Shown here one piece after another: positions 48,020 through 57,534 of a stretch of 64,000 bases of DNA. The DNA comes from Rhodospirillaceae bacterium (lineage in GTDB: Bacteria > Pseudomonadota > Alphaproteobacteria > UBA6615). A program made the translations under genes and the position numbers. The notes under the pieces are model-generated. The model was not told the DNA's origin. It did no database searches and saw only the letters and a program-made list of their open reading frames with translations. The DNA is taken from positions 1 through 64,000 of the forward strand of contig PBPM01000031.1 of the NCBI GenBank assembly GCA_002724635.1. The letters are read 5' to 3'. Position 1 is the first letter of the stretch. The number at the start of each line of letters is the position of its first letter.

Positions 48020-49816
48020 GTGAAATATCGGATCATGGTTCCGCGAGCCATTGCCGCATTCGTCATTGCGGTCGGTATTGCCTCGCCTGCCGTCGAGGCA
48101 CAGCAACCCAAGCCGCGACCTGTCGAAACGGCCCTGGTCGGCCCTGGTACCCTCGTAATTCCGGGAATAGGATCGCTCGACGGGATCTTGTCCGCAGCGG
48201 ACGTCGCGCGATATCAGCGGGTCTACGAGTTGCAGGAGACGGGTGACTGGAAGGCCGCGGACGCGATCATTGCGCGGATACACGACCACCGGTTGATGGG
48301 CCATGTGGAAGCCCAGCGTTACCTCCACCCGACCAGATACCGCTCGCGCTTTTCGGAACTGCGGGCATGGATGGCCGCGTATGCCGATCACCCGCAGGCG
48401 CGCCGCATTCACCGGCTTGCGGTTCTGCGTCAGCCCAAGGGCTCGCGTGCTGCGCAGGCACCGATCACTAACACCTTGCAAGTACGCAGTGAGGCTGTGC
48501 GCAAGGCATCCGAGGGCCGACCGCTTTATTCACGTGCTGCGACCCGGGCAGGGCGCCAGGCCCAGAGCGACATTCGTCGCCGGGTCGGCCGCGGCTGGCC
48601 CACGGGTGCCAAACAATTACTCGGACAGCGCCAGATCCAGCGAAATCTGAACAATGTTCAGATTGCCCAAGCCTGGCGGACAATTGCCCGCGGTTACTAT
48701 CGGGCAGGCAAGGATGCGGAAGCGCTGAAAGCCGCTAGGACGGCGGACGTAGTCGCCCCCGGCGCCGCGCCCCTTGCCTACTGGTGGGGCGGGCTTGCTG
48801 CGTGGCGGCTCGGCAAGACACAAGACGCCGAATCTCTGTTCGGCGCGCTCGCCCAATCCCCGCAGGCGGCCGACTCGCTGGTCGCGGCCGGCGGGTTCTG
48901 GGCAGCCCGCGCGGCGATCGCCAACGGCCACTCGGACCGGGTCACATCTCTGCTGGAGATCGGCGCATTACACGAGCGCCATTTCTACGGGCTCCTGTCC
49001 CGCCGGGCACTAGGTATCACCGCCGACTTCGGCTGGAAGAAACCCGACCTTCAAGTCGGCGGCTATCGTGATATTGCAGACACGCGGATCGGCGCCCGGG
49101 CGATCGCCCTCTTGCAGGTAGGTCGCGAACATGAAGCCGGGCTCGAGCTCCTCAATCTCGCCGCCGCGAGCCCTACCCTGCTGCCCGAAGTGCTGGCACT
49201 CGCCGCCCATGCCAGCCTGCCCGCGCTCTCGCTAAAGCTGTCCGGCTTCGCCGAACCGCAGGCGAAGCTCGCCGCGGCTTACCCGCTGCCGGAGTGGCAA
49301 CCTGCCAACGGATACGCGATCGACAGGGCGCTGGTCTTCGCCTTCGTACGGCAGGAATCCGCCTTCAACCGGCGGGCCAAGAGCCATGCTGGCGCACGCG
49401 GGCTGATGCAGTTGATGCCGCGTACCGCCAGTTTCGTCGCCCGCGAGCGTGCGCTGCGCGGACGCGGTAAGTACAAGCTGTTCGACCCCGAGTTCAATCT
49501 CGCGTTGGGCCAGCAGTATATCGAGTTGCTGATGTCCGAACGCGGCATCCAGCAGGACTTGTTCCGCACGGCGACGGCCTATAACGCCGGCCCGGGCAAT
49601 CTGCGGAAATGGGAGCGTGTTGTGTCCCATGGCAACGACCCCCTGCTGTTTATCGAGAGCCTGCCGTCGCGCGAGACCCGTGCGTTCGTCGAACGTATCT
49701 TGACCAATCTGTGGATCTACCGTGATCAGCTGGGGCAGGAGTCGCCCTCGCTCGATGACATCGTCGCCGGCCGCTGGCCTCGCTACGAAGCGCAGGACAC
49801 CGATGCAAGAAACTGA
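48020..49816 (+). CDS. Soluble lytic murein transglycosylase
   Basis: 598 residues with a signal peptide (AIAAFVIAVGIASPAVEAQ). A helical superhelix of about 400 residues (like Slt70) is followed by the catalytic SLT domain, residues about 430-560: AFVRQESAFNRRAKSHAGAR with Glu446 region, GLMQLMPRTASFVA, and TATAYNAGPGNLRKWE. It cleaves glycan strands in the periplasm to form anhydromuropeptides. Start is GTG 48020; ATG 48035 is possible. Its 3' end overlaps moaB by 14 nt. Confidence 0.93.
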   Translation: MKYRIMVPRAIAAFVIAVGIASPAVEAQQPKPRPVETALVGPGTLVIPGIGSLDGILSAADVARYQRVYELQETGDWKAADAIIARIHDHRLMGHVEAQRYLHPTRYRSRFSELRAWMAAYADHPQARRIHRLAVLRQPKGSRAAQAPITNTLQVRSEAVRKASEGRPLYSRAATRAGRQAQSDIRRRVGRGWPTGAKQLLGQRQIQRNLNNVQIAQAWRTIARGYYRAGKDAEALKAARTADVVAPGAAPLAYWWGGLAAWRLGKTQDAESLFGALAQSPQAADSLVAAGGFWAARAAIANGHSDRVTSLLEIGALHERHFYGLLSRRALGITADFGWKKPDLQVGGYRDIADTRIGARAIALLQVGREHEAGLELLNLAAASPTLLPEVLALAAHASLPALSLKLSGFAEPQAKLAAAYPLPEWQPANGYAIDRALVFAFVRQESAFNRRAKSHAGARGLMQLMPRTASFVARERALRGRGKYKLFDPEFNLALGQQYIELLMSERGIQQDLFRTATAYNAGPGNLRKWERVVSHGNDPLLFIESLPSRETRAFVERILTNLWIYRDQLGQESPSLDDIVAGRWPRYEAQDTDARN

Positions 49817-50351
49817 ACTCAGACCCGGCTTCAAGCCCGTCCGCATCGCCGTCCTAACCATTTCCGACACGCGGAGCTTCGACAATGACCGGTCGGGCGA
49901 CACGCTTGCGGACCGTCTTCAAGACGCTGGGCACATTCTGGCCGCACGCGACATTGTGCGCGATGACCGAGCCTCCATCGCCGAAAAGTTTCGCAGCTGG
50001 GCGGCGGACCCCCAGATCGAGGTCATCATCTCGACCGGTGGCACCGGCGTTACCGGCCGTGACGTGACGCCTGAGGCGCTGGGCGACGTGATCGAAAAAC
50101 GCATCGACGGGTTCGGGGAGCTGTTCCGCTGGATTAGTTTTCGGAAGATCGGCACTTCGACCATCCAGTCGCGGGCCGATGCAGGCGTGCTAGCCGGCAC
50201 CTATATCTTCGTGCTGCCCGGATCGCCCGGAGCATGCCGCGATGGCTGGGACGACATCCTGAAGGACCAGCTCGACATTCGGCATAAGCCCTGCAACTTC
50301 GCCGAGCTCCTGCCGCGCCTGCGCGAGCATGAAGGGCGCGAGGCACTTTGA
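49803..50351 (+). CDS. moaB: Molybdenum cofactor biosynthesis protein B
   Basis: 182-residue MoaB/MogA-fold protein that adenylylates molybdopterin before molybdate insertion. Marks: IAVLTISDTRSFDNDRSGD, ISTGGTGVTGRDVTPEAL, and FVLPGSPGACRDGWDDIL. It lies 46 kb from the other cofactor genes of this window. It starts inside the 3' end of the transglycosylase gene and its TGA overlaps the TTG start of the next gene, so three unlike proteins share one message. Confidence 0.94.
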   Translation: MQETELRPGFKPVRIAVLTISDTRSFDNDRSGDTLADRLQDAGHILAARDIVRDDRASIAEKFRSWAADPQIEVIISTGGTGVTGRDVTPEALGDVIEKRIDGFGELFRWISFRKIGTSTIQSRADAGVLAGTYIFVLPGSPGACRDGWDDILKDQLDIRHKPCNFAELLPRLREHEGREAL

Positions 50352-51394
50352 GGCCGGTGTCGGATACGCTCGACCCAGACGCGATCGCCGAATGCCTGCG
50401 GCAGTCAGGCCATGCACCCGAGGTCAAGGGCACGGATCTGAGCATCCTCTCGACCAAGGGGGTTTCCCACGATCATTGGCGCATCGGCGACAGCGATCTG
50501 GTCTTGCGCATTCCTCGGATGAACCAGTGGGGCCTAGTCGCGGCGGACGCGCTTGCCTATCAGGCCGCGGCGTTCGACCGGGCGTCAAAGAGCGACCATA
50601 CGCCGGAATGTCGTGCAATACTCGCGCCAGGCGACCAGTTGCCGCGCGGCGCACTCCTAGTCACCGCGATCAACGGGCGCACGCCCGCATTGCCGGATGA
50701 TCTCACAGCGATCGCCGTGGCACTGGCAGCGATCCATGAACTGCCTGTCCCGACCGAAGACAAGCTAGCGCCCCTCCAAATTCACCGCAATCCGGTTTCC
50801 TCGACTCTGCAGGTTATCGAGGAACAGGCCGCCTTCCTGTCGGATGCAGGGATTGACGACGAAACCGCTGCCGGCATCCGCGAAGACCTCGCCTGGGCGC
50901 GCAACTTCGCCGGCCAAGGCGAACCCGATTTTCCGCACCGCCTCGTCTGTACGGACGCCCATCCCGGAAACTTCCTGATCGACGCCGCGGGCAAGGCCTG
51001 GTTCGTCGATCTCGAGAAAGCGCTCTATGGTGCTGCGCCGATCGACCTTGCCCATGTCACTCTGGGCACGTCGACCAGCTGGGACCCGGATTGCCGCGGC
51101 GAGTTGTCGGCCGCCGATGTCGGGGGCTTCTATCACCATTATCTGGACCTGGTGGACCGGGAACGCGCCGCCGCGTTCGGCCCCTGGCTGTTGCCCATGC
51201 GCAGGCTCACCTGGCTGCGCACAATCACCTGGTTCGCGCGCTGGAAGGCACAATGGTCCGGCGATGATCACGCCGCGATGCGCGACCCGCGAATGGCAGC
51301 CCACATCCGCACCCATGTGGATCGATGCTTCGCCCCCGAAGTCGTCGCGGCCACCCGCGGCGACTGGCTCGCCCCCAGCATCCTGACGATCTGA
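50348..51394 (+). CDS. Aminoglycoside/choline phosphotransferase-fold kinase
   Basis: 348 residues with the APH-type kinase fold. The catalytic loop is CTDAHPGNFLID (Asp203 region; the usual leading His is Thr-replaced), and the metal-binding Asp is in WFVDLEKALYGAAPIDLAH. GVSHDHWRIGDSDLVLRIPR is the nucleotide-binding start. Substrate unknown; a small-metabolite kinase is more likely than an antibiotic resistance enzyme. Start is TTG 50348 overlapping moaB, or GTG 50357. Last gene of the SLT-moaB message. Confidence 0.8.
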   Translation: MRPVSDTLDPDAIAECLRQSGHAPEVKGTDLSILSTKGVSHDHWRIGDSDLVLRIPRMNQWGLVAADALAYQAAAFDRASKSDHTPECRAILAPGDQLPRGALLVTAINGRTPALPDDLTAIAVALAAIHELPVPTEDKLAPLQIHRNPVSSTLQVIEEQAAFLSDAGIDDETAAGIREDLAWARNFAGQGEPDFPHRLVCTDAHPGNFLIDAAGKAWFVDLEKALYGAAPIDLAHVTLGTSTSWDPDCRGELSAADVGGFYHHYLDLVDRERAAAFGPWLLPMRRLTWLRTITWFARWKAQWSGDDHAAMRDPRMAAHIRTHVDRCFAPEVVAATRGDWLAPSILTI

Positions 51395-51438
51395 GTGTCC
51401 CGATCCGGTGCACCGACCTTCCTGCACTAGCACCAATA

Positions 51439-51453
51439 GTTCTTGTTTTGTTC
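51439..51453 (+). promoter_or_regulatory. LexA (SOS) box, alphaproteobacterial type
   Basis: GTTC-TTGTTTT-GTTC, a direct-repeat GTTC-N7-GTTC with a T-rich spacer, is the LexA-binding consensus of Alphaproteobacteria. It lies 24-38 bases before the radical-SAM ATG and overlaps the candidate -35 box, a position where LexA would block transcription. No second box was noticed in the window. Confidence 0.75.
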
Positions 51454-51471
51454 CTTTCGGCGATTATCATC
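51443..51471 (+). promoter_or_regulatory. Candidate promoter of the radical-SAM gene
   Basis: TTGTTT (51443-51448) and TATCAT (51466-51471) are 17 bases apart. The predicted start falls at or one base from the ATG at 51477 and no Shine-Dalgarno is visible, so the mRNA may be leaderless. The -35 lies inside the LexA box. Confidence 0.5.
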
Positions 51472-51476
51472 ATGAC

Positions 51477-52649
51477 ATGGACAAGATGATCGAACCGCAG
51501 ACCCGCCCCGCGCGCGCCACCGACGCCGTTCACGACGTCGGTCCAGACGCATTGCCCGACCGCACACGCCCGGGACGCGGCGCGATCTCCAACCGCACGG
51601 GGCGGTTCGAGCGATTACGGAAAAACGCCACGGATGATGGCTGGCGGCAAGATCATGCAGACGGCGATCCGGCGCCCCGTCTCGACACGATCGTCACCTT
51701 CGACCGGACACGCAGCATCATCGCCCGGAACGATTCGCCGGATATCCCCTTTGACCGTTCGATCAACGCCTACCGGGGTTGCGAGCATGGCTGCGTCTAT
51801 TGCTACGCGCGCCCTACCCATGCCTGGCTCGGCCTATCGCCCGGCCTTGACTTCGAGACAAGGCTGTTTGCCAAGCCGAACGCCGCGGAGCTTCTCGCCC
51901 GCGAACTCGCGCGGCCGGGTTACAAGCCGCGCACCATCGCCATAGGCACAAATACGGACCCGTATCAACCGGTCGAGCGGCGGCTGAAGATCACGCGGGC
52001 GATCCTCGAGGTACTCGCCGCGCATAACCACCCGGTCTCGATCGTGACCAAGAGCGGGCTTGTCGCCCGCGACCTCGACATTCTCGGCCCGATGGCCGCG
52101 CGCGGCCTCGCGGCGATCGGTGTTTCGCTGACGACCCTAGATGCGGACTTGGCCGCGAATATGGAACCCCGGGCACCGCGGCCAGAGCGCCGCCTCGAGA
52201 CGATCCGGATGCTGGCGACAGCGGGTCTTCCCGTCACTGTCATGGCGGCACCGATGATCCCGGCCCTGACCGATCACGAGCTCGAAGCGATACTGATTCG
52301 GGCTCGCAAGGCCGGCGCGACCCATGCGGGCTATATCCTGCTGCGCCTGCCGCTGGAACTGAAGGAGTTGTTCGAGGAATGGCTCGCGACCCACTATCCG
52401 GACCGAAAACGTCGGGTGCTGAACCGGTTGCGGGAAATGCGCGGTGGCGCGCTTTACCGCAGCCAGTTCGGCGAGCGCATGCACGGGCGCGGCGACCTGG
52501 CGAAGCTGCTCGAGGAACGCTTCCGCATCGCGGCCCGTCAACAGGGCTTCAGAACCGAGCGGACCCTGCTCGACCCGCACCGTTTCAGGCTTACCGAAAC
52601 AGAGGCCACGGCACGCCAACTCGATCTGTTCGACGCCGCGCCTGCCTGA
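51477..52649 (+). CDS. PA0069-family radical SAM protein
   Basis: 390 residues, related to spore photoproduct lyase-type radical-SAM enzymes but of unknown substrate. The cluster motif Cx3Cx2C is in YRGCEHGCVYCYARP (about residues 102-109); preceding it are PGRGAISNRTGRFE and FDRSINAYRG, both family-typical. AIGTNTDPYQPVERRLKIT and TKSGLVARDLDIL follow. The N-terminal 30 residues are disordered-looking. A LexA box directly upstream suggests DNA damage control. ATG 51477 or 51486 could start it. Confidence 0.92.
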   Translation: MDKMIEPQTRPARATDAVHDVGPDALPDRTRPGRGAISNRTGRFERLRKNATDDGWRQDHADGDPAPRLDTIVTFDRTRSIIARNDSPDIPFDRSINAYRGCEHGCVYCYARPTHAWLGLSPGLDFETRLFAKPNAAELLARELARPGYKPRTIAIGTNTDPYQPVERRLKITRAILEVLAAHNHPVSIVTKSGLVARDLDILGPMAARGLAAIGVSLTTLDADLAANMEPRAPRPERRLETIRMLATAGLPVTVMAAPMIPALTDHELEAILIRARKAGATHAGYILLRLPLELKELFEEWLATHYPDRKRRVLNRLREMRGGALYRSQFGERMHGRGDLAKLLEERFRIAARQQGFRTERTLLDPHRFRLTETEATARQLDLFDAAPA

Positions 52650-52723
52650 GACAACGACGCAGTTTTTGTGGGACACGCGAATTAACAATCGACAACGCGG
52701 CATTGTGCTAGCGTGCGCCCCGC

Positions 52724-54061
52724 ATGCTTACAAGCCACGAACTGCTCCCGCTCACCATCGTGGTACTCGTCGCGCTGCTGTGCGGCGTATTCTTGACGCG
52801 CCTGAAGCAGCCGGCGGTAGTCGGCTACATCATCGCCGGTTTCGTCCTCGGTCCGTCGGGATTTGGTCTTGTCGAGAACGAGGCAAGCATCGGCCTGCTC
52901 GCCGAGCTCGGTGTCCTGCTCCTGCTCTTCGTGATTGGCATGGAGCTGAGCCTGCGCGCCTTCCGGCAGATCTGGAAGATCGCGGTCACCACCGTGGCGC
53001 TGCAGACCGCGGGCGCCACGTCACTCGTTTGGCTGATCGGTCAGTGGCAGGGCTGGCCGGTCGCGGCGGTGGCGCTGCTCGCCTTCGTACTCGCGCTGTC
53101 GAGCACTGCGGTCGCGGTAAAGATGCTCGAGGATATCGACGAGCTGCGCACCCGCACCGGCCAGATCACCGTCGGCATCCTGATCGCACAGGACCTGGCG
53201 GTCGTGCCTATGATTCTGCTGCTCGACGTCGTCGCCGACGGCGCGTTCAGCATCTTCGCGATCGGGCGTATTATGCTGTCGATCGGTTTCCTGCTTGCCC
53301 TGATCATCTTCCTGAGCCGCCGCCAGCGCCTCAGCATCCCCTTGCTGAGTCGGACGCAGGGACACAGGGATCTGACACCCCTGCTGGGGCTCGTCTGCTG
53401 CTTCAGCGCGGCCGCAGTTTCCGGGCTCATCGGCCTGTCGCCCGCCTACGGTGCGTTCCTCGCCGGGCTCACCATCGGCAACAGCAACCTGCGCGTCGGC
53501 ATGCTCGACATGGTGATGCCGATCCAGTCGGTCTTGATGATGGTGTTCTTCCTCTCGGTAGGGCTGCTGATAGACGTAGCGCTAATATGGGAAAATTTGG
53601 GCCTTATCATCCTGATGCTGCTAATCGTCACCGTCGGCAAGACCGCCATCAACCTCTCGATCTTCGCAGCCCTGCGCCAACCCTGGGCACAGGCGCTGCT
53701 CAGCGCGCTGATCCTCGCGCAGGTCGGCGAATTCTCGTTCCTGCTTGGCAATGTTGGACTGCAAAAAGGAATCATCTCGGGCGACGAGTTCCGCATCATC
53801 CTGTCGGTCACGGCGCTGTCGCTGATCATCTCGCCGCTCTACATGAACGCGATCCGCCGCCTGCACCGCGCCGCGCGCTATCAGCACGCCTCAATCCGCT
53901 ATGTCTTTCTTGTCGCCTTCGGACGCGAGGCGGATTGGGCACGATTAGCGTTCCGCAAAATCGCGAGCGTGCGCATCTACGCACCCAACGGGGTGAAGCG
54001 GCTGTTCATACCGCTGGTAATTAAGCGGCTCAGACGCCGCAGGCCCCGGAATTCGGACTGA
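52724..54061 (+). CDS. CPA2-family cation:proton antiporter, no RCK domain
   Basis: 445-residue membrane protein of the KefB/YbaL type, exchanging K+ or Na+ for H+. About 12 hydrophobic segments. Signatures: PAVVGYIIAGFVLGPSG, LSSTAVAVKMLEDID, GILIAQDLAVVPM (the conserved Gln-Asp) and LAQVGEFSFLLG. There is no C-terminal TrkA-N/RCK domain, so ligand gating as in KefC is not expected; a basic tail (KRLRRRRPRN) ends it. rnhB starts 8 nt later. Confidence 0.92.
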   Translation: MLTSHELLPLTIVVLVALLCGVFLTRLKQPAVVGYIIAGFVLGPSGFGLVENEASIGLLAELGVLLLLFVIGMELSLRAFRQIWKIAVTTVALQTAGATSLVWLIGQWQGWPVAAVALLAFVLALSSTAVAVKMLEDIDELRTRTGQITVGILIAQDLAVVPMILLLDVVADGAFSIFAIGRIMLSIGFLLALIIFLSRRQRLSIPLLSRTQGHRDLTPLLGLVCCFSAAAVSGLIGLSPAYGAFLAGLTIGNSNLRVGMLDMVMPIQSVLMMVFFLSVGLLIDVALIWENLGLIILMLLIVTVGKTAINLSIFAALRQPWAQALLSALILAQVGEFSFLLGNVGLQKGIISGDEFRIILSVTALSLIISPLYMNAIRRLHRAARYQHASIRYVFLVAFGREADWARLAFRKIASVRIYAPNGVKRLFIPLVIKRLRRRRPRNSD

Positions 54062-54069
54062 TTGCCCGC

Positions 54070-54692
54070 ATGTGTTCTAAGGAAATCTATGACAGCGTCG
54101 CCGGAGTGGATGAGGCCGGTCGGGGCCCTTGGGCCGGGCCGGTGGTCGCCGCGGCGGCCATCCTGAGCGACGAGAGCGGCGCGATCCTGCGCGCAGCCGG
54201 GGTCGACGATTCAAAGGCCCTCAGCAAGACAAAGCGGCAGCGATGTTTCGATATTATCTGCGAACAGCAGGACCGCGGCACCCTGTCATTCGCCCTCGCA
54301 AGTGCCGATCCCGCGGAAATCGACGAACATAATATTCTCGGCGCGACCATGCGGGCGATGACCCGAGCGGTCACCGCGTTGCCGGGGACGCCCAACCGTG
54401 TGCTTATCGACGGCAACCGAATGCCGCCGGACCTCCCATGCCCAGGCGAGACGATCGTCGGCGGAGATGCGAAAATCCTGTCGATTGCTGCTGCATCGAT
54501 ACTGGCAAAAATCACCCGCGACCGGCTCATGGCCGCCCTGGCCGAGCTGCATCCAGGCTATGGCTGGGAGCGCAACGCGGGCTACGGCACCGCGGAACAT
54601 CGCCAAGGCCTCGAATCCCTCGGCGTCACGATTCATCACCGGCGCAGCTTTGCACCCATACGCGAAATCCTAGAACGCACCCCAACATCTCG

Positions 54693-54696
<4 letters not shown>
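54070..54696 (+). CDS. rnhB: Ribonuclease HII
   Basis: Removes RNA from RNA-DNA hybrids and single ribonucleotides from DNA. 208 residues. The catalytic Asp-Glu pair is in VAGVDEAGRGPWAGPVVAAA (about residues 13-14), the third Asp in RVLIDGNRMP and the fourth in GDAKILSIAAASILAKITRD. The closing RNAGYGTAEHRQGLESLGVT is characteristic. It directly precedes ccrM, the usual alphaproteobacterial order. Confidence 0.96.
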
Positions 54697-55885
<1,189 letters not shown>

Positions 55886-55888
55886 CGC

Positions 55889-56956
55889 CTATTCGTTGTC
55901 GGGGCGGCCCAGATGGGCCAGGACGTGATGCACCACCTTACGGGTCAGGGTCGGTAGCGGATGGTCCCCAAATTTCTCGACCGGCACCCACACACCGCCG
56001 AGCGACCTCCGGCCGTCGATCCGGGCGGCCCGGACCTGCAGTTCGAGCTGCAGGTGGGTGAAAACGTGAGTCACAAGCCCAGGCAACAGCCGCCAGTCCG
56101 CCGCCACGGGCGGATCGTCACGGAACACCTCCGATTCCGCCCAGTCCCCCGACGGCACCTCCATCATGCCGCCGAGGAGCCCCGATTCAGGCCGCCGCCG
56201 AAGCAAGACCGCACCGTCCCGCCGGGTCATCCAGTAGGCGGTCGCACGGCGGACCGGGCGCGGCACCTTCGGGGCACGGCGTGGGAGCTCCGCCGTGGTC
56301 CCACCCGCGTGCGCCAGGCAATCCGGCCACCAGGGACACAGCCCGCAGGCCGGCGCACGCGGCGTACAAATCGTCGCCCCCAGGTCCATCACTGCCTGAG
56401 CGTAGTCGCCGGCGCGCTGCTCGGGCGTCATGCTCGTAGCGTAGGACTTGAGCGCAGGCTTGGCATCCGGCAGCGGCGTTCCGACCGCGAAGAGCCGCGC
56501 CATCACCCGCTCGATATTTCCATCGACCGGCGTCGCCTTTCGTGCGAAGGCGATCGCCGCGATGGCGGCGGCGGTATAAGGGCCAATTCCGGGCAACGCG
56601 CGCAGGCCGTTCTCAGTGTCCGGAAAATGTCCGCCATGCTGGTCACGCACCTGGCGTGCACATTTGTGCAAATTGCGGGCGCGAGCGTAGTAGCCAAGGC
56701 CCGCCCAGGCGGTCAGCACCTCGTCTAGATCGGCGTCGGCCAGGTCTTCGACCCGCGGCCAGCGTTCGAGAAATTTCTTAAAGTAGGGCCCGACGGTTAC
56801 GACCGTGGTCTGCTGCAGCATCACCTCGCTGAGCCAGACATGATAGGGGTCGGGCCGCACGCCCTGGCGCGAGAGAGCCGGCGACACTCGCCAAGGCAAG
56901 CGCCGGGCATTGCGGTCATACCATTCGAGGATCGTGTCGGCGGTGGGCGCGGGCAT
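55889..56956 (-). CDS. mutY: Adenine DNA glycosylase MutY
   Basis: Removes A paired with 8-oxoguanine. 355 residues from ATG 56956; an in-frame ATG at 57007 would add 17 residues, and neither has a clear ribosome-binding site. The HhH-GPD catalytic region shows VMLQQTTVVTVGPYFKKF, LPGIGPYTAAAIAAIAF and the catalytic Asp in PVDGNIERV. The [4Fe-4S] loop CTPRAPACGLCPWWPDC is intact. A C-terminal NUDIX-like domain (GAVLLRRRPESGLLGGMMEV) reads 8-oxoG. Divergent from dciA. Confidence 0.95.
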   Translation of the reverse strand: MPAPTADTILEWYDRNARRLPWRVSPALSRQGVRPDPYHVWLSEVMLQQTTVVTVGPYFKKFLERWPRVEDLADADLDEVLTAWAGLGYYARARNLHKCARQVRDQHGGHFPDTENGLRALPGIGPYTAAAIAAIAFARKATPVDGNIERVMARLFAVGTPLPDAKPALKSYATSMTPEQRAGDYAQAVMDLGATICTPRAPACGLCPWWPDCLAHAGGTTAELPRRAPKVPRPVRRATAYWMTRRDGAVLLRRRPESGLLGGMMEVPSGDWAESEVFRDDPPVAADWRLLPGLVTHVFTHLQLELQVRAARIDGRRSLGGVWVPVEKFGDHPLPTLTRKVVHHVLAHLGRPDNE

Positions 56957-57042
56957 GTCGGAAGAGACGTTAGAGACGTTGTGGCGGTCGGTTACGCCTT
57001 CTAACATGCTCACATGGACGTGAATGCGAGAAACCTGACGCG

Positions 57043-57534
57043 ATGACGAGCAAGCGTGCTCGCGGACTGCGTGCCATCGGCGCCGAGAGCAGCCGTGCCA
57101 CCGCCACCATACGACGCAAGCGCGGCTTCTTCGAGGCGAGCGTGTTCTCGGACTGGGCCGATATCGTCGGTAGCGAGCTGGCGATCCAATGCGTTCCACT
57201 ACGCCTCGTGCGTGGCGACGATGGCGAAGGCGGCACCCTGCATGTCCGCGTCACCGGTCCGCTCGCCCTCGAACTCCAGCATCTCGAACCCCAGGTGATC
57301 GAGCGGATCAATAGCTATTATGGCTACCGTGCCGTCGCGCACCTACGCCTCCACCAGGGGCCAATCTCAGCACCCGCGCGGCCCGCACCCGCCATTCCCG
57401 GAAAGGCAGATCCCGACGACCTCGCACGGCTGGACGCCGATCTCGCCGGCGTGGAGGACCCCGAGTTGCGGCGCGCACTGCGCACCCTGGGCGAATCTGT
57501 GTTGGCCTGTAGCCGAACCCGGTCCCAATCCTGA
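57043..57534 (+). CDS. DUF721 protein, DciA-type
   Basis: 163 residues. The N-terminal DUF721 domain (RRKRGFFEASVFSDWADIVG, then LHVRVTGPLALELQHLEPQV, IERINSYYGYRAVAHLRL) matches DciA, the predicted DnaB helicase operator of bacteria lacking DnaC. The C-terminal 60 residues are Pro/Ala-rich and probably disordered. The mutY-dciA-dsbA-smc layout is familiar in Alphaproteobacteria. The DciA function is inferred from family membership. Confidence 0.85.
   Translation: MTSKRARGLRAIGAESSRATATIRRKRGFFEASVFSDWADIVGSELAIQCVPLRLVRGDDGEGGTLHVRVTGPLALELQHLEPQVIERINSYYGYRAVAHLRLHQGPISAPARPAPAIPGKADPDDLARLDADLAGVEDPELRRALRTLGESVLACSRTRSQS

Follow-up and report, generated by a model that had tools for sequence, protein, structure and literature searches.

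A gene for a radical-SAM protein in Rhodospirillaceae bacterium begins shortly downstream of a sequence resembling a LexA box, which raises the question of whether the gene belongs to the SOS response and, if so, where in the cell and on what its product would act. In the following, "the window" is the whole 64-kb stretch of DNA that was analysed.

LexA box and promoter of the radical-SAM gene

The features that bear on the control of the gene are:
51439..51453, plus strand: LexA box GTTCTTGTTTTGTTC, of the alphaproteobacterial direct-repeat operator type GTTC-N7-GTTC (from the sequence and ortholog conservation)
51443..51448, plus strand: -35 element TTGTTT, within the LexA box (read directly; TTG is the commonest spacer start among orthologs)
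51465..51470, plus strand: -10 element TATCAT, at a spacer of 16 bases (TAnnnT lies 26-28 bases past the box start in orthologs)
51477..52649, plus strand: PA0069-family radical-SAM protein of 390 aa, mRNA probably leaderless (NF033668 match; ATG 12 bases past the first T of the -10 element)

An earlier note, made from the letters of this DNA, had described a LexA box overlapping the -35 region of the gene, and the box indeed covers the whole TTGTTT hexamer. GTTCTTGTTTTGTTC is the sole exact GTTC-N7-GTTC within the window, and the whole genome holds 93 such words compared to 55 reversed control words. Because about two matches per 64 kb are expected by chance, the box alone is not significant; significance from the box by itself was therefore rejected, and conservation has to decide.

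Orthologs for the box scan were drawn from the same bacterial family, 80 genome contigs and an even sample of the class, in which 107 of 192 alphaproteobacterial genomes had a match to the gene and the 300 bases upstream were scanned for 103 orthologs. As the other 85 genomes have no match, the radical-SAM gene is dispensable. An exact box was found within 300 bases upstream in 16/16 orthologs of the same family and in 90/103 orthologs of the class sample, among which the same word at other spacings matched 0-4 times and the word in reverse 0-5 times. Of the 13 class orthologs that lack an exact box, several carry a box with one mismatch. Box density was 77 in 28.8 kb of upstream DNA versus 29 in 703 kb elsewhere, a comparison that understates the effect because it includes loci whose strand had been misread. 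Relatives annotated as PA0069 family radical SAM protein carry the box, and the same box type is present in the same genome at lexA (contig C10), at recA (C38) and at an operon read as imuA-imuB-dnaE2 from sequence resemblance. The earlier note had named absence of the box upstream of orthologs as grounds for dropping its proposal; this absence was not borne out, and LexA control of the gene stands as the reading best fitted by the comparison of relatives.

Beyond the class, the search covered 32 more distant orthologs from other Proteobacteria. A CTGT-N8-ACAG operator was detected in 15 of them (controls 0-1), and two carry TTAG-N6-TACTA, the LexA motif known from Xanthomonas. In addition to these 32, an ortholog of the gammaproteobacterium Aeromonas has a CTGT-N8-ACAG box, CTGTATATATAAACAG. 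About half of the 32 yielded none of the searched operators, as did two of the three actinobacterial loci checked. That the same gene is kept under operators unrelated to each other strongly indicates that LexA control has been selected. These comparisons confirm, at the level of sequence, that the conserved box upstream of the radical-SAM gene is a real, LexA-type operator, and we infer that the gene is a genuine SOS gene to which LexA would bind in Rhodospirillaceae bacterium.

The spacing between box and start codon is also conserved. Of 103 box-bearing loci, 82 have an open, in-frame ATG at 36-43 bases past the box start, mostly at 38-40; TAnnnT is found in 60 of these 82 genes, and in 45 of the 60 the distance from its first T to the ATG is exactly 12 bases, which places the ATG at +1. 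The frequency of Shine-Dalgarno-like words does not exceed background (4/82 compared to 6.6% per 11 bases). In the window, the ATG at 51477 coincides with the predicted +1 when read directly. A longer GTG-started frame (51408) begins 5' of the box, and relatives in the genus instead share the ATG 38 bases past the box start. The leaderless mRNA that the earlier note had predicted is thus supported by the +1 geometry in orthologs and the background level of Shine-Dalgarno-like words, and the arrangement is probably a conserved leaderless SOS promoter in which box, -10 element and ATG keep a fixed spacing and the mRNA starts at the ATG. That the box is a coincidental match without regulatory function, for which the two or so boxes expected per window would be the argument, is difficult to reconcile with class-wide conservation at fixed promoter spacing and with class-specific operators replacing the box elsewhere, and we give it practically no weight.

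Several additional observations were made on boxes and regulon members. Orthologs outside the class (loci L295 and L308; genomes G289 and G441) carry TTAGTAATAATACTAA-type boxes, and no box was recognised in close relatives of L295 and L308 from their family (f160), where control has thus been lost or changed. The ortholog of Streptomyces sp. BHT-5-2, whose C-terminus is QLTLL, is preceded by GAACATGTGTTC, which lies 147 bases upstream of the match and resembles an actinobacterial SOS box. Two divergent lon-like (protease) genes in the assembly are each preceded by an exact GTTC-N7-GTTC, at a distance of about 160 bases from the start (C10:2560-2574 and C52:5682-5696; L009 and L143), so that lon may belong to the SOS regulon, or one lon copy may be contamination (6% in the assembly). 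GTTCTTGGAATGTTC (C104:113934-113948, L147) lies about 250 bases upstream of genes resembling mraZ-rsmH of the cell division cluster. The recA matches at two contig ends (C38:61429-62325 and C14:1-477) appear to be the two parts of a single gene interrupted where the assembly breaks.

Protein family and relation to spore photoproduct lyase

Two further features concern the active site of the protein:
51780..51803, plus strand: [4Fe-4S]/SAM motif CEHGCVYC (C102, C106, C109), its cysteines invariant in 50 aligned relatives
51948..51950, plus strand: codon of Thr158 (GTNTD), by eye the counterpart of Cys140 (ACTSD) of spore photoproduct lyase (SPL); T42/A5/V2/S1 in 50 relatives, never Cys

The protein matches NF033668, "PA0069 family radical SAM protein", over profile positions 2-348 of 348 with 494 bits against a cut-off of 360, and its place in the radical SAM superfamily follows from the CxxxCxxC motif and from Pfam PF04055 (68.6 bits versus 29.5). 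NF033668 is a hypothetical equivalog model, and despite the full-length match its description holds no LexA boxes, leaderless promoter or clamp tail. The Rv2578c family radical SAM protein (NF038135) is a sister family, which the window protein matches at E 3e-70 but below the cut-off (237 versus 430 bits). PA0069 itself and Rv2578c are both said to be listed among damage-induced genes; a search of the open-licence literature found no paper on the function of either. A phage origin was considered and rejected, the phage matches being weak and partial.

The earlier note had related the gene to SPL, and at the level of the fold this relation holds. The AlphaFold model (pLDDT 78, pTM 0.80, residues 1-33 disordered) has SPL as all six of its best PDB matches, with E-values of 2e-8 to 2e-7 over about 303 columns and TM scores of 0.52-0.61, which makes SplB (PDB 4FHC series) the closest solved fold; lower-ranked matches include peptide- and cofactor-modifying enzymes. 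In both proteins the Fe-S motif is of the same type, a tyrosine preceding its last cysteine, and core motifs align (EPRA..RL with EPGT..RL). By sequence, the relation is distant. A PDB search with the single window protein gave no match, and one with a profile gave only weak SPL matches. A profile comparison with an SPL segment yielded E 4e-4 over residues 188-261, at a reported probability of only 36%. The window protein matches neither of the curated SPL models, TIGR04070 and TIGR03886, at E 0.001, 2 of 50 relatives match them weakly, and TIGR03886 exceeds its cut-off in 0/144 alphaproteobacterial genomes.

In SPL, Cys140/141 is the catalytic H-donor cysteine. The window protein's family has no conserved equivalent of it by our by-eye correspondence: the three Fe-S cluster ligands are the only conserved cysteines, with no fourth among 50 relatives. 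Tyr108 is invariant, and 36/50 relatives have Phe at position 110, where SPL has its second tyrosine. From the predicted fold and these residues, the window protein looks like a distant SPL relative with changed chemistry.

LexA control of radical-SAM genes called "splB" has been predicted in alpha- and beta-Proteobacteria, where the product was read as a photoreactivation enzyme and the control was not seen in gamma (Sanchez-Alberola 2012, PMC3323433). The window gene has the same operator type and the same kind of protein, and Sinorhizobium meliloti, a species of that study, has an annotated PA0069-family gene with the box on pSymB; in contrast to that study, the Aeromonas ortholog found here has a LexA-type box, and the window protein is clearly not SPL. 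Because the window protein fails the curated SPL models, and TIGR03886 is without a hit over cut-off in the alphaproteobacterial genomes, the published alphaproteobacterial "splB" is probably the PA0069 family. That the window gene nonetheless encodes a true spore-photoproduct-type lyase, reversing 5-thyminyl-5,6-dihydrothymine by SPL chemistry as the name implies, would agree with the closest solved fold, the aligned core motifs and the published naming (PMC3323433). We regard this as very unlikely, given the missing match to the curated families, the restriction of conserved cysteines to Fe-S ligands with Thr, Ala, Val or Ser at the Cys140 position, the Phe at the second tyrosine, and the description of spore photoproduct as spore-specific (PMC4929162).

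SplB-like genes appear in other SOS regulons as well. In Streptomyces, one is LexA-bound by ChIP-seq and induced by mitomycin C (PMC9380542); such a gene is a recurrent SOS member in Gram-positives and Balneolaeota (PMC7739468), and LexA control is described in Bacteroidetes (PMC8565304). SplB-like proteins have been associated with ImuB-C and SRAP proteins (PMC3765255), and in archaea their genes adjoin nreB, NreA requiring its own PCNA motif for mitomycin C repair (PMC4929162, a review that proposes other cross-links as substrates). "SplB-like" radical-SAM proteins recur in SOS regulons of many phyla under an SPL label that misfits the window protein, which has no catalytic cysteine. The earlier note had presented LexA control here as the clearest lead to an untested repair activity; the regulation is real, but it is already known in kind (PMC3323433, PMC9380542, PMC7739468, PMC8565304). 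What appears new from the comparison is the predicted class-wide leaderless SOS promoter, the counterparts under other operators and, above all, a conserved putative clamp-binding tail.

The C-terminal tail

52617..52631, plus strand: QLDLF (residues 381-385), a candidate beta-clamp-binding motif followed by the last five residues of the protein (consensus match, ortholog conservation)

The window protein ends in ...ARQLDLFDAAPA, a C-terminus that the earlier reading of the locus did not mention and that is the strongest clue to function. QL(S/D)LF at the C-terminus is a beta-clamp-binding consensus (review, PMC9690074), and QLDLF fits it exactly. The repair proteins known to bind the clamp through this consensus include no radical-SAM enzyme in the open-licence literature searched, and a full-text search of that literature found no paper joining a clamp-binding motif to such an enzyme.

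Q[LM]x[LF][LF] lies no more than six residues from the C-terminus in 114/130 complete orthologs. Among the 410 further proteins from these loci it does not occur (0/410), and shuffled tails yielded a mean of 0.41 matches (maximum 4). Q..[LMF][LF] ends 32/32 of the more distant proteobacterial orthologs, with looser variants (QGSLF, for example) in 16, and Tsukamurella and Arthrobacter members of the Rv2578c family end in QESLF and QEPLF. The motif pattern was not found in ImuB of the same genome, which was tried as a positive control. Motifs of this kind are short and degenerate; the conservation nevertheless leads us to infer that the tail would bind the beta clamp (DnaN).

The same residues could instead form a tail degron or folding element in an enzyme that is SOS-controlled and not clamp-tethered. 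In 94 of 118 matches to the loose pattern the motif forms the very last residues, where degrons sit, and the AlphaFold model places residues 374-386 in a helix. Nevertheless, the Gln at the fifth place from the end is conserved in 45/50 relatives, the whole pattern is the clamp consensus, and the motif is followed by five further residues in the window protein and in its genus, which together render a degron or folding role improbable.

Proposed role and gene neighbourhood

Since the putative clamp-binding tail is conserved, DNA at the replication clamp is the likely place of work. We consider it probable that the gene product is a radical-SAM enzyme of SPL-like fold, SOS-induced and tethered to the clamp, that acts on damaged DNA near forks. 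In the undamaged cell, LexA on the box covering the -35 element would block RNA polymerase. Upon DNA damage, RecA would induce LexA to cleave itself, and the gene would be transcribed into a leaderless mRNA with the ATG at its 5' end. The C-terminal QLDLF peptide of the product would then dock in the hydrophobic pocket of DnaN, the beta sliding clamp would keep the enzyme on DNA near replication forks, and the 5'-deoxyadenosyl radical would be used to reverse or process a base lesion. DNA as the substrate is deduced from the tail and fold, and the lesion, perhaps of the cross-link or dimer type, is a guess.

DNA is not the substrate of most radical-SAM enzymes, including most of those characterised, and the lower-ranked structural matches of the model include peptide- and cofactor-modifying enzymes; both would suit an SOS-induced enzyme whose target during damage recovery is RNA, protein or a small molecule. 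Such a substrate seems unlikely to us, as the tail is conserved from Alphaproteobacteria to more distant classes and a fold search led by SPL points to DNA.

Beta-clamp clients include polymerases, MutS and ligase. If DnaN binding and a need for the tail in damage resistance hold true, a radical-SAM enzyme would join these clients, and the candidate lesions would narrow to those met by forks. A wider proposal, toward which we are tentative and lean slightly to the negative, is that the PA0069 family comprises widespread clamp-tethered, SOS-induced radical-SAM enzymes whose non-SPL chemistry achieves the direct reversal of a base lesion that blocks replication, in a fork pathway not previously described.

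Finally, the neighbours of the gene recur in related loci:
50348-51391: 348-aa protein adjoining the radical-SAM gene, in 19 related loci; by eye an aminoglycoside-phosphotransferase-type kinase, with no Pfam or NCBIfam match
52724..54061, plus strand: CPA2-type cation/proton antiporter, the next gene downstream, in 27 related loci
54070..54696, plus strand: rnhB (ribonuclease HII), a conserved downstream neighbour, in 68 related loci

The order moaB - phosphotransferase-like gene - radical-SAM gene - antiporter - rnhB - ccrM - mutY (49722-57199 in the window) recurs, whole or in part, across Alphaproteobacteria. As rnhB is often close downstream of the radical-SAM gene on the same strand, transcripts from the SOS promoter might extend into it, and it might then be co-induced.
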